64,000 nucleotides of DNA from Centroberyx gerrardi (taxonomy: Eukaryota > Chordata > Actinopteri > Beryciformes > Berycidae), in assembly GCF_048128805.1 (NCBI RefSeq), contig NC_136003.1:21157340-21221339 (forward strand). The letters are read 5' to 3'. Of this stretch, positions 14,160-55,380 are shown in pieces. The notes under the pieces were generated by a model. That model was not told the origin of the DNA. It saw nothing but the letters and a program-made list of their open reading frames with translations, and did no database searches. The stretch's first letter is position 1; each line of letters starts with the position of its first letter. The position numbers and the translations under genes were made by a program.

Positions 14160-14190
<31 letters not shown>

Positions 14191-17100
14191 TCACAGCTAA
14201 ACTAAATCATTTCTGTATTGTATATTCGTGTATATGGGAATGTGTCTAATCTGGGATCTTTACCCTGAAGGGCTTGGCTGCCAAGAGAAATGAGATTGAC
14301 AAGTGGCGCAGAGAGTTTAAGGAGCAGTGGGCAAGAGAGCAAAGGAGGATGGTGAGTGGTTTAGGAATCTTGGCAAGCACTGAAGTTCAGCTCAGTTAAT
14401 GTTTATTGCACTGTCAAAATTCATTTGTCCAAATTTAACACATTCCAACTGACTGGATGCCTGAACAAGCGTATAAAACAAAATATTTGGCAGTGTGAAA
14501 GAGTGTTCTATCTGTAATGCACAATTGTTGGAATATACTTGATTGTTGATACCTGGAAAGTGTTTAAACTGCATTATGTGCAGAGTAAAGAGAAACACCC
14601 CTGTGATTTTTCCCATATGCATCTCCCTTGTTTATTTTCAGAATGAAGCGGTGGCGGCTCTGAAGAAAGCTCGGCAGCAGTACGTCCAGCGCTGCGAGGA
14701 GCTAGAGAAGGCTAAGGCTGTCACCGCCAAGGCTGCGGACGACACAGCTGGATACAAAACACTGGACAAGAGGCGGAAGTCCAGGGATGAAGCCCAGTGC
14801 AAGGTGAAGGTTCCCCTCAACACTGAGCCTTCATTTGGCCCCCAGACATGCAGTTCTAGTGCAGTTGGTTTCACCTTTTTTGCATTTTTCACAATTGTGT
14901 ACAAGAGGAAGTACCATAAAGTGCTGTTTTCATGGTGACACTTGAAGTACATGAACATACTTGAAGTGTTGCTGATCATGATTTATTGTAAGCACTTAAT
15001 AAGTACATTACGAGTGCATTATGATGAGCAATGCATAATAAACTCTGTTTGATAGCTCTTAAGTGCTGAATACAACTGTGTAGCTGATAATAAGCTTTCA
15101 CCGCATTCAAAAGATATTAAAATGCGGGCCATTATGTAATGTCATTTTTCCTAATGTGGTTATAATGTAAGAATAGCAAGTATATATTTTTAGTGTGCTC
15201 ATAATGTGCTTATGATGTTTCACAATGCACGTCAAAAAGTAAAATGATACCGATTTGTCATAATTTAGCAGCAAGTGAAGTTCTGTCTCCGTGTCTCGGT
15301 GTCTCCCAGGTGACGGAGTCAGAGACGCTGTACAGACAGTGTGTGTGCGACGCCCGGCTCCACCAGGAGGACTTGGTGAAGGCCAAAGAGAGAATTATTT
15401 CTCACATGCGCAAGCTCATCTGTCAGGGAGATAACGTGCTCAAGGAGGTTGGTATGAAGTCAGGGAAGCTGTGTACATGCAGGATTCAACTCTGTTCTGT
15501 GCTAGATACTTGAAATCAGTGGTCATTTTCTCACCATTTTTAAATTTAGTCATAGTCTTTGTCGAAAACATTCTTTAAATTTAGTCCGTATTTAATCATG
15601 TCATATTGATTAAATTTAGTCAATTACTCACTTATTAAAACGGCATATGATTTAGTGAATTTATTTAACATTATAGTCAACGTAAATCTGTCTACTGCAG
15701 CAGCTCTTCAACTGCAGATTAGAAAAAAAAAAAGCTTTTGCAACATTTATACATGTCTCAGTTTATCTGCTGCTCAATGGGTTTTAAGCTTTTAACTCTG
15801 TCTTACAGATGAAAGGCGGCACCATAGGTAACCTGCAAACTCCTCCCTGAAATATGAAACAATGAGTGCACCTGAACATGCTCTTAGCTAACACTCAGCT
15901 ATTGTCTACTAAGCTTCCCCCAGACAAATATAAATCCAGCAGCCCAGCAAAAGAAACAAAACTCATATCTCCTAACCTACATCTGTCTTCCAAGTTAACC
16001 AAGCTGTAACCAAACAAACCTGTGTGCATCTCAGATGAGGAAAGCTCTGGCCAGAGAAATGTAAAGCTAGCAGCCCAACAAATAATGTCTTCTATCGTTA
16101 TGGTTTTCTTCCAGACAGGTTTAATCAAGATAACTTGATTGATACAAACATTTGTCTTTCAGATGAGTTACTTAAAGCTCCTGCCAGACAACTCTATAGC
16201 TAGCAGCCATGTAAAAACAAGTAATGTGCTTCATAATGTACAGGTCTGTCTGTCTCCCGGACAAATTAATCAAGCTGTCTCCTCATACTTGTTTTCTCCT
16301 AGATGAGTTTCTTAAAAGTTCTGCCAGGTAAATCTACAGATAGCAGCCAAGCAAAAACAATTAATACTATATATATCTCACAACATACAGTATGTCTATT
16401 TTTCAGACGAGTTACTCCAGCTGTACCCTAACACACCTCTTTGACCTTCGGATGAGTTGCTTAAATAACATCAAGCCAGAAAACTCTAACAAAAACAATA
16501 TGTCAACATTATGCTTGTCTTCTAGACAGGTTGCTCAGTGCAGCTGTCTCCAACCGCACATGTTCAGACTTGGGTTTTGGCATGGCAATATAATGCATTT
16601 ACTTTAGTTACCAAGTCAATGCCAAATACTTTTCAATTATACATAGACTGTGCATTTCTTCAGCAGTGTTAGCTAAAGACACGTTTGGGCGCGCTCACTT
16701 TTCTGTGTTTCAGGGGAGGAGTTAGCATGTTAACCTATGGTGTCGCCTCTGTTTGTGAGACAGCGCTGAGGGCTCAAACACCCTTTGAGCACTGCACACA
16801 TTCACACCTGGGAGCTGTGTGATATTTAGGGAACATTTTCAAAAGGGACAAATAAGTGTCGCACTTTGTACACTGATTAATGCATGTCTGTGATTGGATG
16901 ATAGTAAACCATGTCTCCATTGAAAAGCATGCACTTTTGTTTGCTAGCCTGCAAGAGTAAATGCATGTCTGTGATTGGATACTGAAAACAATGTTCTTTG
17001 TAGGTTTTCTCTTAACAAAACAGTGACTTTTTTTCCAAGGGTAATTATGATCATCTGCAGCTGTGTTTTCTGTTTTGATCATGTTTTCATCAATAATAGC

Positions 17101-20100: not shown

Positions 20101-23100
20101 CCAGAGGTAGTCCAGTGGTTAAATATCCTGCTTCTGGAAGTTTGTGTGCCCCCACCTAAGATCAAACTCTGCCAGAGCTTTCTCTCTTTGTGAAAGTTAA
20201 GTTTGTAACTTTCTTCACACTCTGTCTCCACAGAGTTTCAGAGAACTACGAGGAGAACAAGATGTCCCCTGGCAACCTGGGTATTGTGTTTGGGCCAACG
20301 CTGTTGCGCCCTCTAGTGTGTGTGGACATGTCCATGGTTGCCCTGCTGGAGACCAGCTACCAGGCTCTCCTGGTTGAGTTCCTCATCACACACCACGAGC
20401 AGGTTTTTGGCCCCCAACAGAGACCCAGCACGCCCCCTCCTCCAGCCCCTACCGCACCTCTTCCAGACACCCCTCACCGGGCTTCCTGTCCCATCAATGA
20501 GGACACTTCCTCCACCCAGGAACACGGAGCCTCATCCAGAGAGCGCCCACACTCCCTAGAGGTAAGAACTGCAATGAAGAAATGCTCAGCTTAAACACGA
20601 TCCGTCTTAGTTGCTGTATTCTAGTGCGCAGCGTTTTCACAGGCTTAGCAAACCATAAATGAAATATTTGTCTAATTTCAGAAGGTCTTCATTGAAGTAC
20701 CATTGGAAAAATGAATACCAACCTTCAGTTGACTGCTGCTTGAGCTTGCTAAGGATCAGTCGCAGTAGTTAGGCATACACACAGGGCAGAGTGAGTTGAG
20801 CCTGAGCTACTTTTCCTCATTAAGGTACCTGTTGGTCTTAAGAGCCTTGGCATGGCCATAGGGGCACCTGGCAGCTTAACCCCACGTTCATTCTGTTAGG
20901 ATTAACATGCTGGACAGCTGCTGCATTTCTTCTGCTCTACCTGCATCGACTCTCACCTCACACTAGAAGCATGGTTTTCTTTCAGACTTTCACCAGGCAT
21001 TACACTCCTCTTTCTCTGAAAAAAACCAAGTAGTTTACAACGAGTTTAACCCACTGTAGACATATGCAGTAACTGTCCTAAACATGTTCAAGAGTTTTAA
21101 AGAGGCGGCTCAAAGTCAGAGCTTCTTTTTCTCATAGCTTGAATTGTCCTAGAGCAGAGTTATGTTCGTAAGCTGATTAGAAATAGTCAGACTCATCCCA
21201 AGTAGTCGCCCACGCCCTTCCGCAGAATCTCTAGCACATGCTGTACTGCTGCAGTGTTTCCAGTCTAGACACGGTCTATAAATGTCTGCAGAATTCCAGT
21301 CCCAACTCCCCCCTTGTGTTACACCCCAAGTGTACCGTATGTCGCCTGTCCCCAACACTCAACTTGTGTCGTTCCAGCAGAGTCGAACAATCAAGAGAGA
21401 GTCAAGCGAGGGTTATATATCTGACAAGTCTTCATCCAATGAGGCAGTGGACCAGCTCAGCCCTGAAGCCAATGAGAGAGCAGGTAGGCGGGACGTAGTA
21501 ACAGAGGAATTATTGGTGTGAGCGGAGAATCATAGGATTTAACCCTATTGATTTGCTGTGTGGTTTATAGATGTTGGGGTTTTAGTTGTTGTTTTTTTTA
21601 ATAAAGTTATATTATAGATTATTGCTGCTGATTGCTGCTTGCACCTCTTCTTTTCTGCTTGAGGCCATTTTTTAATTGATCATATTAGAGATTGTGTAGG
21701 TATTACAGACACAGCTCTTAAGTTGTTTATTTAATTTCCCACAGATCGGCAGTTCTCTGTGGGCTTGAGTAACCCAGTCTCCTCCGCAGCACCAGTTAGC
21801 TGCAGAGTGCCTCAAGGGTCTACTCTAGCTCCTATTTTGCTCTCACTTTACATCCTCCCACTTAGTCATGTTATTTGTGGAAATAAGATTTCTTTTCATC
21901 ATTTTGCTGATGACATCGAATTGTATTCATTTGTAAAATCGAGTGAGTCAAATTTCTTGTTGGGGATTGTTTTAATGGCATTAGGCATTGGATGATTCAA
22001 AACTTTATTCAGCTAGAGGAAAACAAATAAGAAGTCTTAATTGGCCTACCGAATGTCACAAATGTGATTATTGAATTCATCTACTTTACTGATAACATAA
22101 AAGCTTTCACTAGGGAATCTTGGAGTTGCTTTTGAGTCTCACTTAAATTTAGATGAACAAGTCAAAAGGTCCTTCAGTCCTGCTTTCATCAGTTGAGAAA
22201 TATTTCCAGAATACAGAGATTTTGTGTTTTGCTGATCTGGAGAAAACCATTCATGCATTTATTTCTTTAGGATTTAGGATTAATCTTAAAATGCTGTTGA
22301 TTACTTTCAAAGCAGTGCAGGATGCAGTCGCAGTCTACATTGTAGACCTTCTAACTCCATATGAGCAAAAGTGCAGCCTCAGTTTTTCAGACAAGGCATT
22401 GCTGATTATTGCTAAGTGTAGGTTGAAAAGCAGAGGTGACTGTGTGTTTGCTGAGGACATTACACCGGTTTGTCTCATTTAGTCTTTTCTCCCTTCTCCC
22501 TCAGTCCTGGCTATGAGGGGGGCAGGTGGGGCTCAGGGGGAGCCGGTGGGGGAGCCAGACTCTGTTCTGGGGACCCAGCCGCTGTACCGCTTCACCAGAC
22601 AACCTGTGAAGTATCACCGGCATCAAACCCCAGCAGCCCGACTCTCCAACCCGGCTCCCAGGGCCGGACAGCCTGGGACCCCGGCGAGGAGCCCTCCGGG
22701 GAGCGCAGACAGCAGCCGCAGCTCCTCTCCAGAGCCGGGGACACAGAGACTCTCCCAAAGCCTGAACATCCCGCGTGAGAACAGCCGCCAGCCCCGCCAG
22801 GCCAGCGTCACCACAGAGGGCAAGGCTGACGCCCCCTCGGCGAGCCCCCGTGAGGTCGTACAGTACATGCTGGGACTGGACCCGACATTTACGACAGCTG
22901 CAACTGGGGCGCTCTCCAGTCCAACGAAGGGGTCCAGTCAGGAGGCGGGGCCCGGGTGTCAAGCCAGTCTGAACATGAATCAGTCCAATAATGGACAGAG
23001 CGCTGGGCAGGGCCGCTCTCTGTGCCACTCGCCCAAGAGACTTCCCGTTGAGCCGAACCTGACCGCACCAGCCCACAAGATCCTGTCCGGCCTGAAGCTG

Positions 23101-23142
23101 AGGCGCAGTCACTCAGGGAAAGACGAGCAGCTCTTTGTCTGA
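5707..23142 (+). CDS. gmip: GEM-interacting protein: F-BAR, C1 and RhoGAP domains (21 coding exons)
   Basis: Exons: 5707-5752, 7696-7786, 8522-8609, 8807-8849, 11401-11526, 13380-13444, 14046-14153, 14271-14351, 14642-14803, 15310-15447, 17374-17564, 18072-18169, 18284-18346, 18474-18569, 18753-18913, 19165-19341, 19487-19624, 19750-19952, 20234-20561, 21378-21483, 22505-23142. Phases agree throughout and give 1048 residues (human about 970). The N-terminus has [17 protein letters not shown]. An F-BAR coiled-coil region follows (about 90-340; [30 protein letters not shown]). The C1 zinc ligands are H491, C503, C506, C517, C520, H525, C528 and C536. RhoGAP follows (about 555-770) with the arginine finger in GVYRVSG (R582) and [18 protein letters not shown] is a cytosolic/membrane-curvature protein that stimulates GTP hydrolysis by RhoA and binds the GTPase Gem. 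The tail TRQPVKYHR separates it from ARHGAP45 and ARHGAP29. The ATG has G at -3 and +4; an untranslated upstream exon is possible. Confidence 0.93.
5753..7695 (+). other. gmip: gmip intron 1
   Basis: No exon seen. It holds GT-rich simple sequence at 5999-6034 and a large (GT)n tract at 7455-7572. About 7000-7060 reads like the fish-wide 'acatttagctgat...cagcttacaa' dispersed repeat, much decayed. Confidence 0.5.
7455..7572. repeat. (GT)n microsatellite, interrupted
   Basis: Long GT run broken by GC/AT variants (gtgcatgcgtttgtg, gtgcgtgcgtgcaggcg), about 120 bases upstream of gmip coding exon 2. Confidence 0.95.
8853..8883. repeat. (GT)n microsatellite at a gmip splice donor
   Basis: About 15 GT units begin within ten bases of the exon-4 donor (GT at 8850). 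Confidence 0.9.
8884..11400 (+). other. gmip: gmip intron 4, with a possible internal first exon at its end
   Basis: The left part is ordinary intron. The stretch from about 10480 to 11400 is purine-rich with scattered CpGs. It ends in ATGCTGATGTACTCC (ATGs at 11379 and 11385) reading in frame, without a stop, into coding exon 5 through the normal acceptor at 11399-11400. An alternative transcript starting here would encode [13 protein letters not shown] and lack the first four exons. This is inference; no core promoter element is decisive. Confidence 0.35.
11527..13379 (+). other. gmip: gmip intron 5
   Basis: Unique-looking intron sequence with no supported exon, RNA gene or clear transposon. 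Confidence 0.4.
13531..13989. mobile_element. Non-autonomous hAT-type element with perfect 8-bp target duplication
   Basis: The 459-bp element starts CAGGGTTGGGGACATTCATG and ends with the near-inverse of that, TTCATGAATTGACTCCCACC followed by CTG. It is flanked on both sides by ATATTTAC (13523-13530 and 13990-13997), the 8-bp duplication typical of hAT transposons. The inside is built from AATTGGAATT-like palindromic units and has no transposase ORF. It lies in gmip intron 6, just left of coding exon 7, whose acceptor is at 14044-14045. Confidence 0.85.
14159..14186. repeat. (CA)n microsatellite just after a gmip splice donor
   Basis: CA run beginning six bases downstream of the exon-7 donor gtaaag (14154). 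Confidence 0.92.
15448..17373 (+). other. gmip: gmip intron 10, flanking parts
   Basis: Apart from the tandem array annotated separately, no exon is supported. The donor used, GAG|gttggt at 15447/15448, is a poor match, but it is the only one that joins in frame to the next exon and keeps the conserved order DNVLKE-ATVNMF. Two near-copies of 'atgcatgtctgtgattggat' occur at 16880-16900 and 16960-16980. Confidence 0.5.
15860..16560. repeat. Degenerate tandem array, about 5 units of 125-150 bp
   Basis: A recurring block of the form gatgag..cttaaa..cTgccag..aatcta.agctagcagcc.a.caaaaacaa..aat..gt.tgtcTtc.agaca repeats with starts near 15905, 16034, 16162, 16302 and 16450. Units have diverged strongly. 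The array lies inside a gmip intron and contains no ORF continuing through the units. Confidence 0.75.
17775..17955 (-). mobile_element. Fragment of a widespread fish DNA-transposon-like repeat
   Basis: The words 'acatctggatttaggaattttctcccattcttctttgcaga' (in part) and 'gagttccaagctcactcaatttgcaaggggat' are typical of a repeat I recall from many teleost genomes, here shortened and decayed. I cannot assign the superfamily from sequence alone and see no intact ends. Confidence 0.4.
18669..18745 (+). repeat. (CT)n/(CCCTCT)n tract forming the polypyrimidine tract of a gmip exon
   Basis: Nearly pure pyrimidine repeat ending at the acceptor ccacctgcag (18752) of the exon that starts the C1 domain. 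Confidence 0.9.
19070..19152 (+). repeat. (CCTGTT)n hexanucleotide repeat upstream of a gmip acceptor
   Basis: About 13-14 almost perfect copies of cctgtt end 12 bases before the acceptor ccctcag (19164) of the second C1-domain exon. Confidence 0.95.
20562..21377 (+). other. gmip: gmip intron 19
   Basis: No exon or recognisable repeat seen. The 3' end carries tandem acceptors (cagcag at 21375-21380). Confidence 0.45.
21745..22470 (+). mobile_element. Decayed L2-like LINE (reverse transcriptase fragment)
   Basis: In broken frames the sequence reads like the reverse-transcriptase end of an L2/CR1-type retrotransposon. There is [19 protein letters not shown], then [14 protein letters not shown] (the F/YxDD catalytic box, here FADD), then further on [17 protein letters not shown], and near the end LLTPYEQ, SRLKSRGD-like and VFAED words. 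Frames change and stops occur, so it is not active. It sits in the intron before the last gmip exon. The 5' end and the 3' tail repeat are not clear. Confidence 0.75.
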
Positions 23143-24379: not shown

Positions 24380-24685
24380 TTCCCTCATCATCTTCCACAC
24401 CTTCTCCCTCCCTCCCTGTCTGTCCATCTCCTCCCTCTGCGCCTTTTACGCACAACCAAGTCGGAGCGCACACACGGCTGGCGAGGAGGAAAAAAGGAGA
24501 GACAATAGACAATAGTTTGGGTCATCATGGTATCTGGACTTTTACTGTAGGCAATATGCGCGCCGGAGTGTGAAATAATAGAAGAACGATCTGAAAACGC
24601 GTCTATTTATTTACTGGCTTAAAGTTTCCCCCCCGTTTTTAATGCTGCCAACCGAGATTTCAGGAGGAGTGTGTTTCACCTCAAG
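24380..24685 (+). promoter_or_regulatory. Probable promoter and non-coding first exon of the lmx1-type gene
   Basis: This block contrasts with its A/T-rich surroundings: a CT-rich stretch (24370-24440) is followed by CpG-bearing sequence (gcgcacacacggctggcgag, atatgcgcgccggag, aaaacgcgtc) and ends in a good splice donor, caag|gtaggc at 24685/24686. A matching acceptor, tttttcag, occurs at 26947, 28 bases before the coding ATG at 26976. LMX1 genes usually have an untranslated first exon. The transcription start is not determined. Confidence 0.5.
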
Positions 24686-26668: not shown

Positions 26669-26975
26669 GACCTCAGTCTGACTTCAGATCTAAATTGTGG
26701 TCCAAGTAAAAAGCCTTCCTCATCACTGTTTCAGTAAGATGGAGGTGAAGAGCCGCTTATTGGAAATGACGCTGTCCAGTTTCCAGTTTTATGCTAAGGA
26801 AACATATCGAAATAACTGTCTTCCGTAGTGTTTCGGTGTGTGCATGGGTGCATATTTCGTCTCACTGATTCCCTTCTCTTCACATGCAATTACTTCAGTC
26901 GTTCAGTTATGTCTCGGAGAGAAAAGTCAGTTTTTGTCCTTTTTCAGCGATCACACCGAGGGAAGGAGAGAAGGG

Positions 26976-27921
26976 ATGAAAACAGAGGAGAGCCAGTCCT
27001 GTCTGCAGCAGCCTCCATCCTCAACGCCTTTCGGTGAGTGGCAGCTGACAGCTTCTGAAATAGGGCACAGCTTTCTCTTTCCAAATTTTCACTATTACAC
27101 TACAGCAACAGAAACAGAACCTTTTAGTCTTTACGGTTCTTGGTGTACAAGTGTTGCTGAGGCCTAAAGACGAAAAATAGGCCTAACTGATGGGCTGCTA
27201 CATTCTAGAGGGACAGTTTTAAAACATCACAGCAAACTACCTCTGTAGGAATATTATAGGAATATTATAGTGACACTAAAGGAGAAAAAAATACCATAAA
27301 GTATACTGGGACCTTGATAAACTCACTACTGAGTGCCGTAGACACACTATAACTCCCTGTAGGAATATTATAGGAATATTATAGAGACGCCTTAGGAGTT
27401 TGTTTTTTTGAAATACCACAAAGTACTATAAGGTCACTATAAACTCACTATTGAATACCACGGATACACTATAGGTTCCTATAGGAATGCTATAGTGATT
27501 GCATATAGGAGATTGAAAAAGTTCACGCACACTATAAAATCACAATTGAGTATCACGGACATTTTAAAAATCCCAATAGTTGTACTATAGGAATATTATA
27601 TAGTGATATCATAGGAGGAAAAAATAGTCTACCATAAAGTACTATAAGGTCACTATAAACTGACTATTAAGTTCCGCAGAGATAGCCTGTAAGACCCTAT
27701 AGGAATGTTGTTATATCACAGGAGATAAAACAAATTTCCATAAACTAACACAGACAGTCTATATAGGAATATTATTGAAATATTATAGTGATATCATAGG
27801 ACCATACAAAAAGTAGGCCACTATAAACGCCCTATTGAAAACCACGGACACACTGTAAGTCCCCGTAGGAATATTATAGTGATTTTTCGATATGGTCATC
27901 ATCCTATTCTGACCTGTTGTT

Positions 27922-27954
<33 letters not shown>

Positions 27955-28980
27955 TAATTTGTAAACCGTGCCCCAGGTCCAGAGTACGGGGCAGGGGGAG
28001 AGCTGTGCGCGGGCTGCGAGTCGCCCATCGCCGACCGCTTCCTGCTGCGGGTGAACGAGCGCTCCTGGCACGAGACCTGCGTCAAGTGCGCCGTGTGTTT
28101 GAGCGCGCTGACCGGGACCTGTTACTGCAGGGACCGCCTGCTCTACTGCAAGCACGACTATGAGAAGTAAGAGCCAGCACGGGACACACAGACGACCACT
28201 TTCCATAAGTAACTCGGTTTCAGTCGTTCCTAAAAGTGGGGTGGGGGGACATCCAGGGGTCCGTGATGGGTGGGTGGTTGGGGGTGGTGGGTAGGGGTGT
28301 GTGTGTGTGTGTGTGTGGGTGTGTGGTTGCCGTGTAAAAGTCAGCTTATTTATCTTATTGGTTATTTTACTCTCTATAGTTGTTGGCCCAATGAGAGAGT
28401 GCATAAGGATGACTATTTTGATCACAGGTCCTTTATCATCCCACCTAGTGTAGACAGGTTCATACTTTTGTACCAAATCATATCTAACAATAAACATATT
28501 CTCAGACTAATCTCATTAAATGGAGGTTCCTGGTCTAATTATGTGTGTCTATTTTGGGGAGTCCTTGATATGGAAAAGTCTGGGAGCCCCTGCAAATCTT
28601 CCAGTGTTAATAAGTGACAATTGAGTCAATTATTAAATGATTTGGAGTTGACAGGTGTTGACTGGAGAGCTGTTTGTCCACTCATATGGAGCTGATATGG
28701 ATCTGAGCTGGCTGTTCATCACTATCTAAAGTGTTAAATTAACTCTGATGGGTGTGGACTTATATAAACACTGGCATTGTGTTGAGTTTTACACTCTCAG
28801 AGTTAAAATTAACACGGATGATTTTGCTGTGTGCTGTATGCAATGCTTTATTGTAATGCATTATAAATACTATTGGGAGGGAATGAATCCTACTCGAGGT
28901 GTTGTGAGGTCCCATCATACTGTCTGGAATCTCTGAATCAGTCACTCCCTCTTTTATAGGGAGAGAAACAGTGGGAGAAA

Positions 28981-29023
<43 letters not shown>

Positions 29024-29219
29024 CTTTTTGTTTTGGTCGTCGAGTGTGTGCTGCGGTCGGTCGGCGGGTGTGTGCTGCGGTCGGTGAGAGCTCCAGGAGT
29101 AGACGGCTGAAGGACGAGCCTGCAGCTTGTTATCATTGTTTTGAAAAGTGTCAGACGGCATCCAGCAGCACAGACTCTCCCACTGTACCTGACATCTGGA
29201 GGAGAGAAGGAGAGGGAGA

Positions 29220-29254
<35 letters not shown>

Positions 29255-31512
29255 ACAACAGAGAGGGGGAGAGAGGGAAGAATTGGCTGATGAGAGTCCC
29301 ATTGTGTGACGTTTATCTTGAAAAATGAGTGGGGGAAAAGTAAAGCGCATTGGCTTATCATGAACGCAGCACCGGGTTCATCTTCAGTGGAAAAAATGAA
29401 AAAGTCTCCAACCGGCGTATTTGCTCTGCTCATGTAATGCATGTAATTGAAGATCCAAATTAAAAGTCCGTGGCTCATTCAGTATAGTGTTGATTTAGTG
29501 CCCTATACATTGCATATGGATAGTTGCCTTGTTGTGTGACTCCGTGCCAGACTTGGCACGCAGTACCGCCTGTGACCTTCAGCGGATCAGCAACAATGTC
29601 TCCTTGTGTTCCCTGCAGTCTGTCCATCAGCGCCTTACACTCCACACACTCCTCCCCCTCCATCTGCAGCAGGTGTGTGCATTGTAACAGATAAGCATGC
29701 CCGAGAATTTGGAGCGTGCATAAGAATTCGAGGGGGAATACGTACAATTTTAGGTGGATGCTTATTTTTCCTCTTAACCTCTTGGAATCTGGCTCCATTT
29801 TATTTTCTAAGGGACGATTGATTGAATTGGCAGAGAGCAACTGACTGATGTCTTTACACACTGTCTGTTTTGCATGTCAAAATATTAAATGAATGTAATT
29901 ATTCACCGTATCGTGCAGAATGTTTGGGTGAATTGTTTCCACGCATGGTGAGGCTGCATCTTACAGTCTTCTAGCACATACTGGGCCATTTTCCATGCCT
30001 CCCTCATCATGCAGTATCTCAGGCTTGTCCAAACATTTTTAACTTCGTCCTTTGCTTTGATTACATCACCCAGCCCACACTCACACAGACAGGCAGAGCT
30101 CCCCTCCCTCGCTCTCCCTCAGCAGAAGCCAAAGGCCACACTATGCTAATGGCATGGTATGGTAACCCTGCTTATCTGTTTGCCTCTTTGCTTGATTGTT
30201 TTTGTTGTAGTTTGAATTCAAACACTATCTGATCTTCATATACCTTCTAAAATACAATCATTCCAAAAATAGAAATGAATCCAAAATTCATTTATTTGGG
30301 ATATGAGAGTGACACTGTACATATGCAAAGCACTCTATTCTGCCAAGGTGAAAGAAGAAAGAAAGAAAGAAAGAAAGAAGGCTAGAAACTATGCAGATGT
30401 ACAAAATTCAAATGAGAAGGAAAAAAAATCAAATTTTAAAATGTACAGTGTAGACTCAAGCCCTGTGTGGAATACCTGGTTCGGTCATGAATCACATTCA
30501 AGTCCCTGAGGCTTCAAGGAATAAATAAGTCATCACCTGCTGCCTCATCATCTACGATGTTAAAATACAGAAGGTTTTCAATTTCCCTTATCTCAATCTG
30601 CTGTGGAAATAAGATTTAGACTCAATAAACTCACTGAAAGTGCATCTTGTGGATTTGTAGTGATAATTATTTTTGTTTTGAAACCTCATGAAATTAACTT
30701 GAATGCCATTTATGAACCAGATATTCTGTATTGAGTGTATATTATAATATAATACATTGTTCAACACCTGTAACTACATCATAAACAGGAAGTCTGAGCA
30801 AAATTTTGTAATTTGGTCCAAATGTGTCAAGGTGGAAATTACTTTGGCCTTTGGATTTTGGATTTTTGGATTTTACTGGCAATTAAATTGTATACCTTCA
30901 CCAGATTTCAAGATTTCTGGACTTTCTTTTTGACATGCAGAACAGAGTATTTGGCATAGATCTCTGACAATACATGTATGCACTCTATATATACTGCAGA
31001 TCAAAGGTGTGATATGAGAAATGAACTGTTCAGCCCCTCAAAGTACTTTTTGGGTGGATGGCAAAAGAGTCCTGTGTTCAATCGCATGTTTTATCTTTAA
31101 CAAAAGTTATATGGTTATTAAATGTCATTTTGGCTCAAAATAAGACAAAAAAGCAGATGGACATAAATGGATAATGTCTGCCACCCTCAATCTCCAACAC
31201 ACACATTTAACTCATGCTCTCTTACACAGAGCGTCGACATGATGGTCCTTGTCCAAGCTGAGCAGTAAGGCCTGTGTGTCCCGGTCAACAGTGCTGAGCC
31301 CAGACAGAAGTGAGGGTTGCCTGGGTCTGCGGAGCCTGCAGGCTGCCTTGTAAGCCCCCATAAAGACAAGCCTCTGCACTGTGAGAGGCGGGTCACTGGG
31401 GTGGATATTTACTAAACCCTGGGTTTAATACATCACTCTGTGGGGTGGAGGGCAGCGAGGCTCCGTCTGACTTTACAAACCCTCGCTCTGCAGAAAGAGA
31501 GAGAGAGACAGA

Positions 31513-31550
<38 letters not shown>

Positions 31551-33017
31551 CCCCGCCGCCTCAGAATAGACCGAGTCGCTGTGTGTGAGTCTAATGCTAA
31601 TGGGCCGAGAGACTGTTCTCCATTCTCTCAGGTTACGGCGTGTTTATGTGTGTGTGTGCGTGTGCGTGTGTGTCTGAGTCCCGCTGCTCCAAAACACTGG
31701 GACTGTGGATCGAGATCGCATCTTCTTACCCCTCTTCCTCCTCTCCCTTATCCCTCCTATAGGCTACCCCCCACCTCCCCACCCCACCCCATCCCACCGT
31801 TCCTCTCCCTATCTCTCTCCCCATCACCTCGTTCATCACTGTCTGCTTTGTAATAATATTTCTCTATTCCAAACCTCATTTCCTTCTTGTTGAGATTGAT
31901 AGCAGCGATGACACCAATCAGTTTATCTCTCCGTTTATCCCTCGTTTTCTCTTAATCGTCTCCCCCCCCCCCAGCGCCTCTTTGTGTCTCGGGACGGGGG
32001 GTGGGGGGTGGGGGTTGGTTGGTGGGTGAGGGGGTGCGGTGGCGGGTTGATTGGGTACAGTGCTAATTAGCCTGTGTTCTCCGGCTGTCATGTGATGACA
32101 GGCCTGACACCGGGCTGCAGAGAAACACTATTAGAGGGAATTATGCAATGACAAGTCAAGGGGACAATAATCACCCTACAGCACCTCAACCTCACCTGAT
32201 GAATTACTGGCATATTAATGAATTACATTTGATACAGCAAGCCAGAATAGCGGACAAGTGTTTGATTTTGCTGATTAAGAATGCCGCCTAGATATGGAAT
32301 CTGCACATTTAAGGAAAGTGTGTGGTTTCATCCAGGATCATGTGTTAATCTTGGCTGCTTAGACTTCAACTCTGTTCCTAGAGGTCTGTGGGGAGTCTGC
32401 ACAGGCAGCCATCGCCTAAGATACACTCAGGACTCCATATATGTAAAATCACAGTGAGAGACTACATGCATGTGGTTCTGAAACTCCCAGACGCTCTACA
32501 GTACTCCTCCCTCACCCAAGAGTCTTAGCTCAACAGATGATGGGCGGAGGTGAGGTGTGCTACAGAGGACTGGAAAGTGGGAGGTGGGGGGGGTGGGGGG
32601 GGTAGAACCTGTTTTTGATGGTTTGACTCTATGTAACGATGAAACAACAGACAGGGACGACATCCGGAGAGAACCACAGAAGAGTTTAAGGTGTAAATGA
32701 AAGAACGCCGGGGGGAAAAGCTTAGCGGAGGAGAAGGGAAGGGATCGGCTCAAAATGGGATAAAGACGAGATGTCCGTGAGTTTTTAGGGAAGGGAACAG
32801 CCGCAGGGAGGGGAGGGGTGGAGCGGTGGAGGGGTGGGGGGTGGGGGGGGGGTGGAGGGCGTGTAACCCCCGGTAATATTGCCACTGTTTTTGCATAATG
32901 TGAGATGAGTCCCCATCATCTTTCCTCCCCCACAACAATTTTATTACAGACAGCTAATAAATGTTTCATGGCAGAACAAGCTGCTCGCCTTGGCTTTATT
33001 AAATCTGAGATAATAAA

Positions 33018-33056
<39 letters not shown>

Positions 33057-34019
33057 GGGGGTCGGACCAGAGAGGGAGAGATAGGGAGAACGGCGTAGAC
33101 TTTCTCGAATAGGGGCGGCTGTATCTCCTGTTTCTGGGGCAACGGGTCCCGCTGTCCCCCGCCGCCCCCTCCCCACCGCTTCCCGCTCCGCCAGAGAGAG
33201 ACAGGAAATGAGAAACCGGCAGACAGGATATTGCGTTCTGGTGGCCTGGGGATTAACTGTTTTATCTAAACTAACACACACACACACACACACACACATA
33301 CGCGCGCCCACACGCTCACGCACACAGACACACACACACATTCTCATCCATATCCTCACACACATTCACACATAGCGTTCATTCTTCTTAGCGTCAGGTG
33401 TAGATCACGCACAGCCAGACACAGTCATACATGCACAGAGACACGCGCTCATCATGCACACAGCATGCATGTATGTCACGCAGGTTTTTAGTTGTTACTG
33501 TATGCAGGTATATTACATTTGGTCTTGTAATATTATGGGCTGTCGCAAAAGAGTTCAAGTTCTCCCGGTGCTGAGCTCATGTAGAGCCGGTCTTATTACC
33601 AGTGTGAACAATTTACAGCGAGAGTCATGCCATGTAACTGTATAACTGTGAGAATGGCTGAGGGTCTATGCAGAGATGCTTCAGAGGGTCCAGTCCATAC
33701 ATCGCAGGATCTTGTGACCATTAGATAACTAATAACTCATTTTTTTTATAAATCAAGGAAATCTATTTTCAAAATTATATCTGGCTTTTACAGTTTTTGG
33801 AGATGGTGAATGAAGCGAGAGGACAGTGTGTGGTGTTAGTATATTGATGCATGGATGGGTATGGTGCACAAATGACAGCATCTGTCAGTGTTTTATTGAT
33901 GTTTGTACCCGGGAACCTTATCTGTGTTTACACATACTGTGCATATTTGTGTTTATGTGTGCATGTGACTGTATGTATACCCGTGTGTGTGTGTGTGTGT
34001 GTTTGTGACTGTATATATC

Positions 34020-34096
<77 letters not shown>

Positions 34097-34272
34097 TGGT
34101 GTGTGTGAGTGTGAGTGAGTGGTGGCAGGGGTAGCGAGTATCGTGGGGAATGCTGGGAGATTTTAATAACACAGAAGCAGTGCAGGGAGATTTAATAAAA
34201 GGAGATGATGTGATTACTGAACCCTGGCTCTGAGCCATTTTGCTTCACAGAGCAATATCCGCTGCAAGTGTG

Positions 34273-34307
<35 letters not shown>

Positions 34308-37211
34308 GCACGCACACACACACCTACACACACACACACACACACTCACACATCTAAGAAATGGATACTAAACACAACACAACTTAAAAGTAAGATTGTT
34401 GCATATCATTTGTACTTTTCATATCAATTTCACATGATGCATTGCATGCACTTATACATTTTCAGGACATGCATAAGCACCCATTTGTTTGCCACACACA
34501 ATGGTCATTCTGGACATATAATATATGTGGGAATCACAAGCTGCAATACATGAATACCTTGACACATCACATGTTCAGGAACAGAAATGCATCTCAAACT
34601 ATGGATAAGGAATCAAAATGGGTGGCAGACCTTTTTCTGGTGCATCTCCTCATGCCTTGTATGTTTTAACGAGCCTGGGGTCTAGAGTGAGGCTAAATTT
34701 ACCAGTTTGGGACCTGAGCTGGCAAACAGACAACTGACCCAAACCTAACGAGTATAGGATACAATGAAAACCTGGAGTCAGTTGAGGCAAACCCTTACCT
34801 GTATAATTATTCATCAATTATGGAAGCAAGCACAACAACTGTAATCACTCTCAGACACATACATATTTATGGAGTGATTGTGTTGCAGTCCAGACACTGT
34901 TGTGCTTGTCAGAGCACACAGGCAAAGCAATGCCACACGACACACAGCTTGCGCAGATAATGAAGACTCTGTTATCGTGTTTGTATGCCTAGGCTCTAAC
35001 AATACACATGAAGGAATGGGCTGAATATACACGCCAAATGCTTATAATACATCACCTGTGCCCCCTCTCTACTTTGGATCTCATAATCTGTGTGCTTGTA
35101 ATTACCTGTGCCCCTTCACCCCTCTGTAATCCATGTGCACTGAAGATAAAGTTTGCCTCAGCTGAGGTTCCCGAGGTTTAGGGTGGACTGTGTTGACTCT
35201 TCGGTCCATGCACTCACGCTTATCTCTTTTGTAATCATGTATGTATCGTATCTATTACAGATGGTAATATCACTTCATAAAATGAAAGCCCTGAAATCCA
35301 AAATAAAGTCCACTTGAAGATATCCTTTCAGATAGCTTTGCAAACCATTGGTTTTTACCTTTCAGCTGTTTAAACTGTCTTTATCTGAATTTCCACTTTT
35401 TTAAAATATATATATTGGAAATTCAAATGCAAGAAAAACAAGTTTCTCTGTATCTCAGGTCAATGTCATGCATATTTTCATTTTTCCACTGATTCCTGGT
35501 GTGAGCAAAAACATGCCTATATTAGGTGATGTATTCAAACTTTAGAAGTCATGTTTTTATTGTAATGCCATTACATAATCAAAATGGGAACGTGCTGCAC
35601 TCCTTATTTTAGAAATGTGTATTTTAATATACATATTTTGCTGTTAGTAACATGGGATATCAGAAACAACAATACATTTTCATTTAAAAGCAATGACTGA
35701 AAGTGTGGGCAGAACTTTGCATAATGTTATAATCCTATGCCTCTTAGATGTATAGATGGAGTTTAAAGAGTCAAAGTCACGCCATAAAATAATTCTAGTG
35801 GAATAAGAACAATTATGAAAAAAATTGACATTTAGCATCAGAACTGGAAATTATATAATTAAAATGTAGCCATGTGGCCTAAAATTCAGATACAACAACA
35901 GTCTATTTTACAAGTCACAATTTGCATGGGAATTTCTATAGGTAATCATGATCAAACTAAACATATTCAGGCACATTGTGCAAGATCTGCAATATTCTGC
36001 AATGACTAGAAAGATATGGAAAGGTCAAACATTTTTTGTGTAAAACATGAATATTGAAATATAGGCTAAACAATGTGTGGGTATGTTTGTGTAGATGCTA
36101 TAAATTTGGCGTGGAGGCCAGGTTTACCTCATACGTGTGTGTGAGCTGGGCTGTAAAGGGTTTACCCGTTCTGTCCATAGTGATTTATTGAAAGCTATAT
36201 CCCCTGGTAAGGGCCAGTGTGAATGATGCTTCTATTAGAGGGATTAGACTGATCTACTTACAGACCCCCCTCTGCGGCAGTTGCCCCAAGTTGCCTTCAT
36301 TTGCCATGTTGAGTAAATTCCTACCGTGCTGTGTACACCCCGATTAGGGAAAGGGGGACTCAACCGCCAACATCATTAGTCTTATGTCAAGCAATTCTCT
36401 GATGATTCTGTTGTCATTTTTCACAGTGAAAGGAAGTATTTAAGGTATGCTGCTGCAGCACTCGGATGGAGACTGAGGCTGTGCAGAGCAGAGCTGCGAT
36501 TGCTCTCTTTCAGGCATCGGTTCAATGCCAGGAATAATGATTGACACGTGGGGCGTGTTTGTTGACATCTTATGCTACTGGCATCTCTAAGATGCAATGT
36601 AACGTTTCAATAAAAGAGGGTGAGCAACATGTAGTTGAATGCAAGGGTCTGTCGCAATAGATCTGTGTAAGGCTGCTTGTAGGGACGCCTGTGTTTGTGT
36701 TATGATGTTAAGTTAGTGACACTGTCATTTGGGGAATTTGGGGAGCGTTTGGCAGATGGATTGAGAAAGATTAGCCGTAGCAGCTGCGTTTGGGACAGAA
36801 TCACAGATTAGGGGCTCTAATGTGCAGACCTGGCTCCCTCTTTGCACTCCAGATTTGGGCAGCAACACCTTCCTATCACTCAGTCAGGGAGCGTCAACAC
36901 TTCTGTCTTCGTCCCTTCCTCCCCCCCTCCGCTCCTCTCTCATCCTCCCTCTCTTTTTGTTCAGGTTTTTGTTATTTTCTGCTGCTATTTCTGCCTCCAA
37001 GTGCCTTTTTCCTTTTTACACCTATGCTCTGTCTACCTGGTAAATCCTCCTCTTGATGTGTAATGCTCTGATGATCCAAAGTATCCGCACTGTCAATATT
37101 TCCTGATGGGATGGCAGGTGTGTTGCAGATGTACTGTACACCACAAGTATGATGAAGGGATATGACACGGTTACCGTGAGTAACCAGCCAATATCAGACT
37201 AGGTATATGGA

Positions 37212-37255
<44 letters not shown>

Positions 37256-40200
37256 ATGCGTGCGTGTGTGTGTGTGTGCGTGTGTGTGTGTTTGTGTGTG
37301 TATGTGTGTTTTAGTGTGCATAAGTGAGAGGAGAGAGATTAACCCCATGCTATCCCCAATCCCTGGTTATGAGTTTACAGCGTCTGTCTGGCCATCGCAC
37401 TGTTTAAACAACAATCTAATTAATCCTGTCTTTATTAGTTTCAGTGAACTGGGGAGGCAGGCTGGGAGGGCGTGAGGGAGAACTGGGAATGCTGGCAGAA
37501 AATGCCGGGGAGGGAGGGGGGGGAGGGAGCCGAAGTGAGAGAGCAGGGATTTGAGAGGAATTTAATGGCAGAGACTTAGGCCCGCTGAATGGAAATGGGG
37601 ATGTGAAGAGATGGTGAGGCGGGAGAGAAATTGAAGGGTTATAACATCTCACAGGAGGAGAGACGGAGGGACAAAAGGAGAGAAGTGGTCATGGGGAAAA
37701 ACCAATGGACCTCAGAGAGAGACTGTATTAAACTGGAACTTTAACTTTATTCATCATGTTAAATCATTGCTTTTAGTCTGTGGGTGGGATATGGGTCGAT
37801 CGGAGCTCACTCTCTCGGATAGATCTCAACATTTAAGGAATCACAAGAGAGAGAATCGCAACAGGCAGCTCCCTTATCATTGGTGAACTACTGCCACCTA
37901 CTGTCAAGAGGGAGAAAAGAAAATACAATATAACAATACAGACAACTGTAATTCCTGTTAGCAGATGTTCACCTTGTTGCTCTGTGCATTGGGTAATGTT
38001 TATACGACCTTTAATTAAGAGACTATGCTAATCTCCAGAATAATTGGAGCTGAGGGTAAACGAGTCAAAGCTCTGTGTCTGTGCTTCCATCTTTAATTAC
38101 CTTACCTTTCTTTCTGCGCACTCCTCTGTTTTACAGTTTATGTTTGTGTCTTAACCTACGTATCCTTCACTCACATGCCCATGTGTCTGTCTCTCTCTCT
38201 CTCTGTCTGTCTCTCTCTCTCTGTCTGTCTCTCTGTCTGTCTGCGTGCCTCCAGGCTGTTTGTGAGGAAGTGCAGCGCCTGCCTGCAGGTGATTGGCCGC
38301 TCTGAGCTGATAATGCGGGTGCTGGGCCAGGTGTACCACCTGGGCTGCTTCAGCTGCTGCGAGTGTGAGCGCCGGCTGCAGAGAGGTGATGAGTTCGTGC
38401 TGAAGGAGGGCCAGCTGTTGTGCCGCGTCGACTACGAGAAGGAGAGAGAAATGCTGGCCGCCATCAGTCCCACCCCGACTGAATCAGGTAGAGTCAGTTT
38501 TGTGACAGGATCGTTTCACCTGAACCTCCTAAAAGTCTGCTCAAAGTTGCTTGTTTTTTCTAGAATAAGGATAATAATACTGTGATACTTTGTAAGGAAA
38601 TTCTCTTTTAGTTTAGGGTTCATTTCAGAACAGCACTGCTGGTAGGGATTGGGTGTTGATCTCTCCGACCATCAGTGTAAAGGGAAACCTCACAGGCTTA
38701 TAGCCCTGTCTGTATGGAGTAGGAGGGATAGACACATACACACGCATACACATGCACACACACTTGCACTCACCTAGACATGCTTATGAATATGTATGTA
38801 AACCCCACCTAATATAGTCTGACATGGGAAGCTTTTGGATGACGATCCCAAAATGAGATGTTGGTATTAATCTGAAAGTGTAACTGTATTTATTTAACAT
38901 TATTTGTACAATTCATTTGCATTCTTGATTCTGTTGATAGCGTTAATTCATCAGTTCATTCATTAATTGTTATTCTGTTGGGGGATTTTGTTATTATACA
39001 TTACATTATACATTATTTGTCAGTAGTTGGTTAAATGCATGTCTTCCAATCGCCATCAGAACCTTTATTCATCCAGGGAAGAGTTATGTTGAGCGTTCAC
39101 TCATCCAGCATTCATTTTCAGCACAGCCTGCCTCATACACAGTTCCACACATTCACACTATAGGAAGGAGTTCAGTACAACAACAGTCCTTCACTGTAGG
39201 CCGCTGACCTGCTTCCCTTGGGCAACTGGGGGATAAAGGCTTTTGCTCAGGGGCACCTCAGTGTTAAACACTTCCACTTTTCCGTTTCCAGACTGAGGGA
39301 TTTGAAACGGAGACCTTCTGCTCACAAGCCTGCATCTCTATGTCCATAATCTGTTTTTTTTATGTGTGTGAAAAACAATGAAAATGCACCTTCTCCTGCG
39401 CGCTGTTCTGACGGCTGTGTTTTCTGCCGACCTCTCTCAGTGAAGAGTGAGGATGAGGATGGTGGAGGAGGCTCCGGCGGGGGGAAGGGCGGCGATGAAG
39501 GCAAGGAGCACAAGCGTTCAAAACGACCCCGCACCATCCTGACCACACAGCAGCGGCGCGCTTTCAAGGCCTCCTTTGAAGTGTCCTCTAAGCCCTGCCG
39601 CAAGGTGAGCGGACCAGCCTCTCTCTTATATAACAGGATACAGCGCTAAAGGATAATACCGGCGGTTTTTTCATCTATGTTGCCTCTTTCCTTTACATTA
39701 TTCCTAGTGGTGTCTGCACACAGTCAGCATAGTTGGAGATATCAGGGCTCGTTTTCCTACCTTCAGAAGAAGCTATTTGCTGCCATTCATTTTTGTGCAG
39801 TATGAAAAACAATTTCCACAGACTTGAAAATTGCCCGACCTAGATAATCCATCACAGTAAACATGAAAGCCTTAATTTGGTTTTATCAAAGTTTCTGTTG
39901 TATCCTTATTTCATTGTGCCCACGTTGCATTACGTTACGCTCTGCTTACTGTCAATCACCTGACACCCACAGCAAGACGCCAGGAAATAATCCCTCAAAA
40001 CATAATGCCTTACAAACTTTATTGTCACATCTATGTCTTTTTATTTGGGGCTTCTTAGTGAGACGGGACAGCAGTTCATTTGAAGCTAGGTTTGTATTTT
40101 AAAAACAATGTAAAACGAGTAAATGTTAAAAACAAATCTAATTACATACTGCATACATTGCAAAATGATTGGGGGAAACATAAACTAGACGTAGATGGAA

Positions 40201-40392
40201 GTAAATGGGTTTTAACTGTAAATGACATTGGTATTCTCCCTTATCATATTAACATCATGGCTCTGTCTCACCTGTAGGTAAGAGAGACGCTGGCTGCTGA
40301 GACTGGACTGACAGTGCGAGTCGTGCAGGTGTGGTTTCAAAACCAGAGAGCCAAGGTTAGACTTTACATATTACCTTCAGGGCATGTTCTCT

Positions 40393-40424
<32 letters not shown>

Positions 40425-41706
40425 ATTTTCATACTGACAGCGTGTGTGTTCCTGTGCTTCAGATGAAGAAGATAGCTCGCCGACAGCAGCAGCAGCAGCA
40501 GCAGCAGCAGGAGCAAGAGCAGCTGGGAGGGACCAGGAGAGGGCCGAGCAGAGGGGGCCGACAGAGCAACGACGACAGCGAGGGTAAGAGATAAAGTGAC
40601 AATGCGGAGACCGAGTCATTCATATCGCTCATGGCGGTGACAGAGAGGGGGGCAGGTGAGGAGGTGAAGAGGGTTTGATTGAGGGGATTTTCATGTCCAC
40701 ACAGACGGCTCTAGCACTCACGGAATGGATGGGATGCTGGGATATCCCTCACTGCCACGTCAGCAGCTATTGGCTCTGGACCCCAACATCTACGGAGGAG
40801 AGCCGTTCCGACACGGGCTTACACCGCCTCAGCTGACCAGTGAGCAGCTCCACTCCTATGGTAAGACAGGGGGCAAAGACGCAAGACTAAAGGAGTAGTT
40901 CATCCCAAAATGAAGATTCAGTCATTAACTACTCACTCCCAAAAACAGCATAAAGTGTCCATCAAATTTCTCCAAACAGCTCATGCAACATAATCCAAGT
41001 GTTTTGTAGCCAAACCATTACACTGTAGGTCCAAAAGTTCAATATTTTCCTCACTGTCAGTGCTAACCCAATGAGCACCCTATAGTAACAAGCAAGGTCT
41101 TCTACCAGATCAATGTAGAGCTGCATGACCATTGAATGAGTATTGACAGTGAGGAAGATATAGGATATAATGAGATGAATGTTGGACTTTTGGACTCACA
41201 GTGCAATGGTTTGGCTACGAAACACTTTGATTATGCTGCATGAGCTGTTTGGAGAAAGTTGATGGGCATTTTTATGCTTTTTTTTGGAACTGTCAGAAGA
41301 TGGCCTCCTTAACTTCAATAGTTTGAGAGAAGGCTGAGATGGGCTAACTCACTGTGTGTTTGGTGGTCCTATGAATCAAATGGAGTTTTGACTGACATGG
41401 GGGTGAGTAGATAAAGACTGGATTTTAATTTTGGGGTGATTCCTTTAATAAATAGATTGAAGGGGTTAAGATATTGTGCTTGTTCCCATGGTCTTCTGCG
41501 CTCTCTCCAGTTCAACCCTACACACTCTCACTCTGTTTACGCCCCCAGACTCAGAGACAGTGTTCCACGACCTGGACAGCGATGGAAGCCTCGGTCACCT
41601 TGGCGACTGTCTCTTAGCAACAGGGGAGGGCGGTCTCCTGCCGGGGCGGGTGGGAAACCCCATCGACCGTCTCTACTCCATGCAGAACTCCTACTTCACC
41701 TCCTGA
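26976..41706 (+). CDS. lmx1al: LIM-homeodomain transcription factor of the LMX1 class (third paralogue, lmx1a-like)
   Basis: Coding exons 26976-27033, 27977-28166, 38255-38487, 39441-39604, 40278-40355, 40463-40583, 40705-40860 and 41549-41706 join in frame to 385 residues (human LMX1A 382). A short MKTEES start (compare MKMEE in LMX1A/B) precedes LIM domain 1 (about 30-81; CAGC, HETC, CAVC, CYC, CKHD). LIM2 follows (about 89-145; [31 protein letters not shown]). Then come VKSEDED, a Gly-rich spacer, and the homeodomain (about 187-246; [34 protein letters not shown]). Nine glutamines follow, then GLTPPQL, and the end [18 protein letters not shown] is that of LMX1A. LIM1 is more diverged than the homeodomain. 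LMX1 proteins are nuclear regulators of dorsal limb, roof plate and midbrain neuron fate; this copy's own role is not known to me. The symbol is my best guess. Confidence 0.9.
27230..27890. repeat. Tandem array of GGAATATTATAG units, about 7 copies
   Basis: Units of roughly 60-120 bp carry the ordered words 'ataccataaagta.tat.aggtcactataaactcacta.tga.t.cc..agacacactata..tccc.tataggaatattatagtgat'. The palindrome-like core (ataggaatattatagtgat and variants) recurs near 27240, 27360, 27480, 27585, 27700, 27757 and 27862. It fills most of the intron before the LIM1 exon. Confidence 0.88.
27916..27953. repeat. (GTT)n microsatellite before the LIM1 exon
   Basis: About 11 GTT units, ending 23 bases before the acceptor ccccag at 27976. 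Confidence 0.93.
32040..32300. promoter_or_regulatory. Candidate conserved enhancer in the lmx1-type gene
   Basis: This is complex, non-repetitive sequence dense in homeodomain-type cores (gtgctaattagcc, aattatgcaat, gatgaattactgg, attaatgaattac), lying between G-rich and simple-repeat DNA. A large intron of a developmental transcription factor is the usual place for such elements. Conservation cannot be judged from one sequence. Confidence 0.35.
34015..34095. repeat. Compound (TA)n(GT)n microsatellite
   Basis: About 10 TA units run directly into about 26 GT units. Confidence 0.95.
38488..39440 (+). other. lmx1al: lmx1-type intron after the LIM2 exon, with SINE-like tail
   Basis: About 39060-39330 reads like a tRNA-SINE/LINE tail common in fish: ctttattcatccagggaag, cttttgctcaggggcacctc, gatttgaaacggagaccttc. 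Ends and target duplication were not found. The rest is plain intron. Confidence 0.45.
40484..40510 (+). repeat. lmx1al: (CAG)9 coding repeat, polyglutamine after the homeodomain
   Basis: Nine perfect CAG codons directly follow KKIARR in exon 6, then GAGCAAGAGCAG (EQEQ). LMX1A also has a glutamine run here, with mixed length. Confidence 0.95.
40888..41449. mobile_element. Foldback-type MITE, about 560 bp
   Basis: The ends are inverted: taaaggagtagttcatccca at the left and the complement-like ggggtgattcctttaata at the right. Inside, 40947-41068 (aaagtgtccatcaaatttct...) reappears in reverse complement at about 41140-41279, so the element can fold into a long hairpin. No ORF. A shorter relative is at 53307-53571. 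It lies in the last intron of the lmx1-type gene. Confidence 0.82.
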
Positions 41707-44682: not shown

Positions 44683-45434
44683 TCACAGCTGTTTCTTTGT
44701 GACCTGCTCCAGTAAAGACTCACCCACTCCACTGAGATCCACTGTCTCCGCACAGCCAAGGAAGCGGGCGACATGTGGGGAGCAGGAGGTAGGTGCGGTC
44801 TGGTTTTCTCTGAGGCAGCGCTCAAACTCCACAAACTCCTTGGAGCAGTCCGATCTGATCTTCTGGATCACCGGGCTGCAGTCACATTTAGGGAGAGACA
44901 GAACAGGAGTATGCTTTACAGTGCTTTGGTGAGATGTGGTGATGTCAGTATCACATTGTAGCAACAATTATTTGAACGCCTTACTGTGAAGATGTGCACT
45001 GAGCAACCTTCATCTTTAGTTCATGACACTGATGCTGCCATGTCGATGGGTTGGAGGCCACACATGACCCGTACTCCTCCATTTCTTTATGGCAATACTT
45101 TGCCGTGATGTCCATAGCAGCCTGCCTGAAAGGTGACAGACAGATAGATGATGGATGAATAAGTCAGGTCATGCTAGACAAGTCCAATGAGCCAAAGCCA
45201 TTAGCCTTATAAACATAGTTTGATAAATATATGATATGGCCTGATTCCCTACTAGTACAGTATGATAATGAGTAATAAAGCAGTTTTGTTGAGGATGCAT
45301 ACATGAATCACACACAAAGTAAATGTTTGTTTCATGATTACAGCCTCCACTGTATGTATTTCACTATATTTCTAGACTATGAGAACAAAAGTAAATGTAG
45401 CCTACTCGTATATACTCGTATGTATTTCTTACAT
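44683..45434 (-). CDS. chchd5: Coiled-coil-helix-coiled-coil-helix domain protein 5 (three exons, split ATG)
   Basis: On the minus strand, exon 1 contributes only AT of the start codon (45434-45433), exon 2 is 45125-44985 and exon 3 is 44875-44683. The product has 111 residues (human 110). It begins MQAAMDITAKYCHKEMEEYG; human begins MQAALEVTARYC. Four CX9C motifs make two CHCH folds: C-HKEMEEYGS-C and C-HELKMKVAQ-C in exon 2, C-SKEFVEFER-C and C-SPHVARFLG-C in exon 3. Such proteins are imported into the mitochondrial intermembrane space and oxidised by MIA40/ERV1; the precise role of CHCHD5 is poorly known. The exon-1 donor ACAT|gtaaga is strong and leaves A at -3 of the start codon. The gene is head-to-head with atp13a1. 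Confidence 0.9.
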
Positions 45435-46044
45435 GTTGCTCCGGAAGATAACTGGGGACTTCTGAACTGGCAACTGAAGACTGAACTGATGAATCAAGGT
45501 TATAACGCCAGTGTGTCTGCATGTGGAGCTATGTCTGTGCAGTTTACTACCGTGTACACCCTGTTACTATCCGATAGGAGGAAAACATAAAGTTATGAAA
45601 TCGTTCTTTAATTCTATTGGTTCAGAGTCGTGTCAATCTCACACTTTGGCTCCTCCCCGATTGTGACGTCTCAATTTCTTAAAGGGATGGCTCATCGCAT
45701 CTTTAAAAAAATAAATGACCAATTCATTATTTTGTCAAAGAAAACTCTTCATACACATGTCGTATGCAGTTTGCTCCCCAAAAAAAATACATTTTCAGTA
45801 TCTGGAAGACGACGCATACTTGGCAGTTTGCTCGCATGTGTTGTGCTACGACAGCGAAAAGAACATTGCGTGACTTTGCGTGTTTACGTACGCGGAAGCA
45901 GCGGCGAGAGAACGGGCGATTCAGAAAACGGAATCTGAAAGGTGGACAGGACGCCGCTCTGTGTGTACAATTGCATTTTTACCGGCTACAGCACGACGGG
46001 GGGTGGTGGAGGAGAGAGGGGGCCCGGGAAGTGAGGGACGTACA
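45435..46044. promoter_or_regulatory. Shared promoter region, chchd5 (-) and atp13a1 (+)
   Basis: About 610 bases separate the two start codons, which point away from each other. The stretch includes an ETS-type ccggaag (45442-45447) in the chchd5 leader, an inverted CCAAT box (attgg near 45617), a CRE-like TGACGTC (45664-45670), and CpG-rich sequence at 45800-46040. No TATA box stands out. Both are housekeeping genes, which suits a bidirectional promoter. Confidence 0.6.

Positions 46045-55380
<9,336 letters not shown>

Follow-up and report, generated by a model that had tools for sequence, protein, structure and literature searches.

The 64,000-nucleotide stretch of the Centroberyx gerrardi genome analyzed here (contig NC_136003.1, positions 21,157,340 to 21,221,339; henceforth the window) carries an intact LIM-homeobox gene of the LMX1 type on its plus strand. 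We regard it as highly probable that this gene is the orthologue of a third LMX1 of jawed vertebrates, which ranks with LMX1A and LMX1B, was probably derived from genome duplication and lost in mammals, and most likely encodes an ordinary LIM-homeodomain activator. LMX1A and LMX1B are important in dopamine and serotonin neurons, the inner ear, the limb, and the kidney.

Phylogenetic position of the window gene

The window gene was searched against 5.8 billion proteins, and the other paralogues were collected with two additional queries, an LMX1A of the elephant shark and a protein of a lamprey. The 246 proteins retrieved represent the best 120 of 1289, 1511, and 1258 matches, and the lamprey-query search scored part of the candidates. 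The main tree was inferred by the maximum-likelihood method from 69 rows, namely the window protein and 68 proteins chosen by hand from the 246, and was rooted at the midpoint.

The window gene was placed in a clade of 32 rows that received support of 100/100 and was present in 100% of 200 bootstrap trees (termed the third clade). This clade comprised the sequences of chondrichthyans, gar, bowfin, sturgeon, teleosts, coelacanth, amphibians, and sauropsids, with 7 rows of chondrichthyans standing beside a bony-vertebrate group of 25 rows, which received support of 99/92. The LMX1A rows (17 rows, none of a teleost protein) and the LMX1B rows (15 rows) formed clades with support of 100/99 and 100/100, respectively, each including chondrichthyans, and the window gene fell outside both. 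Five cyclostome rows were separated from the three gnathostome clades (97/88). The third copy and LMX1A were found together in gar, coelacanth, tuatara, skink, and spadefoot. A fast tree of the 246 proteins and the window protein gave support of 100 for the third clade, 99 for LMX1A, 100 for LMX1B, and 95 for the cyclostome sequences. In a tree of the LIM domains only (119 columns; LHX3, LHX4, and ISL1 as the outgroup), the third clade was again recovered with support of 100/100, and the root was located outside it.

The sequence-only reading of the window had taken the gene for a third LMX1 paralogue and proposed a phylogeny of LMX1 proteins as the check. In that phylogeny, the window gene grouped with the genes of sharks, gar, coelacanth, and tetrapods in a clade of their own, and no nesting inside the LMX1A rows, which held no teleost protein, or the LMX1B rows appeared. 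Altogether, the trees support the window gene being an old third LMX1 paralogue. Two rows, Heterodontus LMX1A (P0159) and the third copy of Amblyraja (P0099), had unusually long branches. In the LIM1 domain of the former, 7 of the 8 zinc-ligand positions were altered or missing, probably owing to an error in the gene model.

Taxonomic distribution

We assigned each of the retrieved proteins to a group by its best relative and read the taxa from the names of the cluster representatives. Among the matches listed, 114 of the 246 proteins belonged to the third clade: 64 of ray-finned fishes, 8 of cartilaginous fishes, 1 of coelacanth, 14 of amphibians, and 27 of reptiles and birds. None of these 114, drawn from the best 120 matches of each search, bore the name of a mammal, while mammals accounted for 11 of the 64 LMX1A and 6 of the 63 LMX1B proteins listed. 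The sequence-only reading had pictured a fish gene gone from mammals; the mammalian part agrees with these counts, but the gene is not confined to fishes and occurs across jawed vertebrates. In the portion available of a table of human homeobox genes, pseudogenes included, LMX1A and LMX1B are the only Lmx entries (PMC2211742), and the string 'lmx' is absent from the available text of a survey of human and mouse homeobox genes (PMC3141429). Loss of the third LMX1 gene on the mammalian line is probably the simplest reading of this distribution.

Gene structure

The gene consists of nine coding exons for 409 amino acids. Eight of these, spanning positions 26976 to 41706, have GT/AG borders at all internal junctions and make up one open frame of 385 amino acids. 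A search (tblastn) with the percomorph orthologues P0001 and P0002 revealed an additional first exon of 14 residues at 24642-24683 (14/14 identical, E of 0.001). Joining 24685|GT to AG|26948 keeps the frame and introduces no internal stop, and in-frame stops lie upstream of the ATG of exon 1. The Met at 26976 is thus an in-frame internal codon within exon 2. Since the gene models of some orthologues (gar P0053 and turbot P0006) begin at the later Met, either the ATG of exon 1 or the Met at 26976 may serve as the start. A complete gene of 385 residues had been read before; the two LIM domains, the homeodomain, and the open frame all stand, but coding exon 1 had been overlooked, and the full frame is of 409 residues. 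With the open frame and the splice borders intact, we rejected the possibility that the locus is a pseudogene.

All of the exons lie on the plus strand. Exon 1 (MLPTEISGGVCFTS...) occupies 24642..24685, as judged from the tblastn matches, its GT donor, and the in-frame join to 26948, and exon 2, with the alternative start, occupies 26948..27033 (splicing and tblastn). Exon 3 (27977..28166) and exon 4 (38255..38487) encode LIM1 and LIM2, respectively, both being delimited by splicing, Pfam, and the alignment. The linker and the first part of the homeodomain are in exon 5 (39441..39604), and the rest of the homeodomain is in exon 6 (40278..40355), which contains the WFQNQRAK helix, and exon 7 (40463..40583), which contains the homeodomain end and a glutamine run. 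The C-terminal region follows in exon 8 (40705..40860), and the conserved C-terminus and the stop are in exon 9 (41549..41706). Exons 7 and 8 were delimited by splicing, and exons 5, 6, and 9 by splicing and the alignment.

Domains and sequence divergence

The scores of the LIM domain (PF00412, two stretches) and the homeodomain (PF00046) exceed the Pfam cut-offs by far, and the best matches of the window protein among the solved structures in the PDB are LMX1A homeodomains (E of 1e-33). The third type shares the domain order and, on average, 96% of the homeodomain residues with both LMX1A and LMX1B, the WFQNQRAK helix being unchanged. The C-terminal tail conserved in the LMX1 family, including LMX1A, is present in the window protein, as judged from the group consensus of the alignment. 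The third type differs from both in forming a separate clade and in the LIM domains, of which LIM1 is 53% identical on average to LMX1A and 63% to LMX1B, and LIM2 is 66% and 65% identical, respectively. Under a strict rule, two positions of the 385-amino-acid frame separate the third clade from LMX1A and LMX1B. At position 149 in the linker, the third clade has Met and LMX1A and LMX1B have Leu, with Met also in most of the cyclostome sequences. At position 227 in the homeodomain, Thr of the third clade corresponds to Ser in LMX1A and LMX1B.

A further homeodomain site is encoded by exon 5, where 35 of the 64 ray-finned proteins of the third clade carry FEVSAKPCRKV, 25 read S instead, and 4 read neither. 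Among the other 182 proteins retrieved, the same site is S in 177 and A in 1. The change was found in many percomorphs but is absent from the window fish.

Alternative explanations

Four other explanations were weighed. That the window gene is a teleost-specific duplicate of lmx1a or lmx1b (third-round, 3R) might be suggested by the database names of many of its orthologues, which are LMX1A or LMX1B, and by the tree containing no teleost lmx1a protein. Such a duplicate should not share a clade with support of 100/100 with the genes of gar, bowfin, sturgeon, coelacanth, tetrapods, and sharks, and the approximately unbiased (AU) test rejected the trees in which the nine teleost rows of the third clade were forced to join the LMX1A rows, themselves without a teleost protein (p-AU of 2.0e-9), or the LMX1B rows (7.2e-8). 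We thus rejected a teleost-specific duplication as hardly credible. It is also very unlikely that the gene is an old gnathostome paralogue born in a small local duplication, even though a tree does not distinguish the mechanism and the gene order comes from one genome. In a tblastn search with one orthologue, the window showed no LMX1 copy other than this gene. The neighbors colgalt1, gmip, and atp13a1 correspond to genes that we take to be in 19p13.11 in human, and COLGALT2 is presumably close to LMX1A on 1q, as CERCAM is to LMX1B on 9q. The sequence-only reading had placed LMX1A beside PBX1 on 1q and LMX1B near PBX3 on 9q, and both agree with the bands given in the available part of PMC2211742 (LMX1A 1q24.1, PBX1 1q23.3; LMX1B and PBX3 9q33.3), in which PBX4 is assigned to 19p13.11, in parallel with the two pairs. 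The third LMX1 is probably a leftover of the early vertebrate genome duplications. Its fit to the genome-duplication paralogon is good, as judged from one fish locus and human positions that are partly presumed.

We regard it as unlikely that a mammalian orthologue exists and was missed because of strong divergence, a gap in the assemblies, or a rank below the matches listed. Only the best 120 matches of each search were listed, and genes hidden in GC-rich regions are known elsewhere. On the other hand, in the search with the window query, the frog proteins of the third clade (63 to 67% identity) all outrank the first mammalian protein, platypus LMX1A; LMX1A of platypus and marsupials is among the matches listed but no third copy of theirs is. 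The human homeobox table cited above points in the same direction. Altered partner binding through LIM1 is similarly doubtful. The sequence-only reading considered LIM1 clearly more diverged than the homeodomain, and the LIM1 domain of the window protein is indeed only 53% identical to that of gar LMX1A, compared with 97% for the homeodomain. Nevertheless, LIM1 of LMX1A and LIM1 of LMX1B differ from one another about equally (58%), LIM1 is 80% conserved within the third clade, and all of the 16 LIM zinc ligands, those of LIM1 included, are kept in 32 of the 32 rows (positions taken from the usual LIM pattern). The proposed link between an unusual LIM1 and changed partners is not supported. As LIM2 is 80% identical between LMX1A and LMX1B and, as given above, 66% and 65% between the third clade and the two, it is the relatively more changed domain and would be the better candidate site if partner use differs.

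Several observations count against the interpretation of the window gene as a third LMX1 derived from genome duplication and lost in mammals. The mammalian loss is deduced from the best 120 of 1289, 1511, and 1258 matches. Teleost LMX1A was absent by name from the 246 proteins, and the ray-finned LMX1A rows are those of gar and paddlefish. The tree of the LIM domains did not give LMX1B as one group (32% of bootstraps) and did not settle the order of the three paralogues, and four cyclostome rows joined the third clade in it (95/89), unlike in the full tree. The two trees thus differ in the placement of cyclostomes, on which the age of the split relative to lampreys depends. In addition, the gene order around the third copy was read in the window fish only, and the function of the gene is inferred.

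Neighboring genes

The genes in the window are arranged in the order of colgalt1, gmip, LMX1, a CHCH-domain gene, and atp13a1. The 3' part of colgalt1 lies at 1..1131 on the plus strand (PDB Procollagen galactosyltransferase 1, E of 1e-37 and 6e-34; PF01755). Exons of gmip were recognized piecewise at 11322..23142 on the plus strand, with approximate outer limits, by a match to GEM-interacting protein (PDB 3qwe, E of 2e-11), PF22699, and the RhoGAP domain (PF00620). The last open reading frame of gmip, assigned by reading, ends near 23142, approximately 1.5 kb upstream of LMX1 exon 1. Downstream of LMX1, a twin-CX9C gene, which we take to be chchd5, occupies 44686..45163 on the minus strand, with PF16860 just above the cut-off and the second exon recognized by the CX9C motif. 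On the plus strand, atp13a1 occupies 45874..55235 with approximate start and end, as seen in its matches to PDB 9jbz and 9jbm. The former is an endoplasmic reticulum transmembrane helix translocase (E of 5e-18), which we take to be ATP13A1. Three exon-sized pieces also hit the P-ATPase model TIGR01657, whose name refers to ATP13A2, with scores under the cut-off set for the whole protein, and the last piece of the gene was assigned by reading. LMX1 had been described as lying exactly between gmip and atp13a1; both do flank it, but the minus-strand CHCH gene separates it from atp13a1.

Further downstream, the plus-strand open reading frame pieces at 58751-59164 and 60626-60766 resemble the kinetochore protein Dsn1 by eye. 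Pfam and NCBIfam gave no match to the piece at 58751-59164.

Known counterparts and naming

The third-type gene is already annotated in many genomes as LMX1A, LMX1A-like, LMX1B, or LMX-1.2, and in zebrafish as lmx1al. Zebrafish lmx1al is very probably the same gene, as the four fish records that carry this name (P0008, P0017, P0028, and P0051) are in the third clade; the zebrafish protein itself was not recognized by name among the matches listed. The third-clade proteins of sharks, amphibians, and salmonids bear the names LMX1B or LMX-1.2 (e.g., P0024, P0064, P0067, P0073, and P0092), and LMX1.2 is given as an alias of LMX1B in the available part of PMC2211742. At least three names are misleading for the third clade, namely LMX1A, LMX1B, and LMX-1.2.

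In the portions available of the zebrafish literature, lmx1al and lmx1ba mark serotonergic enteroendocrine cells (PMC12714231; reviewed in PMC12346124), and lmx1al marks a hypothalamic neuron type (PMC12239631). One of these papers, published in 2025, assigns lmx1al a mammalian orthologue (PMC12714231), an assignment that the LMX1 tree presented here does not support. The name 'lmx1a-like' occurs in one lizard gonad study, also available in part. One occurrence of 'lmx1al' in the literature was discarded, as it denotes the mouse allele Lmx1a-lox and not the third gene. In the full-text literature searched, which was available in part and had subscription papers outside its scope, we found no treatment of a separate third LMX1 paralogue lost from mammals.

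Proposed function and implications

The third LMX1 gene persists in both cartilaginous and ray-finned fishes, in coelacanth, and in amphibians, reptiles, and birds. From what is known of LIM-homeodomain proteins, its homeodomain is predicted to bind AT-rich elements, its two LIM domains are expected to bring in cofactors of the LDB type, and activation would be contributed by the C-terminus, which is conserved. The expression of zebrafish lmx1al suggests that the third LMX1 could act as a selector in the cells so marked, namely the serotonergic enteroendocrine cells and the hypothalamic neurons. We tentatively entertain a wider scenario, in which there were three ancestral LMX1 genes in jawed vertebrates, the third served as the enterochromaffin and hypothalamic selector, and mammals lost it, LMX1A substituting there. 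If this scenario is true, an equivalent cell type would be run by non-orthologous LMX1 paralogues in fish and mammals.

The gene often filed as LMX1A in non-mammals is probably not the orthologue of human LMX1A. If a third gene is indeed present in most vertebrate groups and missing from mammals, the comparison of 'lmx1a-like' or 'lmx1b' of zebrafish, frog, and chick with human LMX1A or LMX1B may be between non-orthologues. The locus would also provide a clean test case for the loss of a regulatory gene between two retained neighbors.

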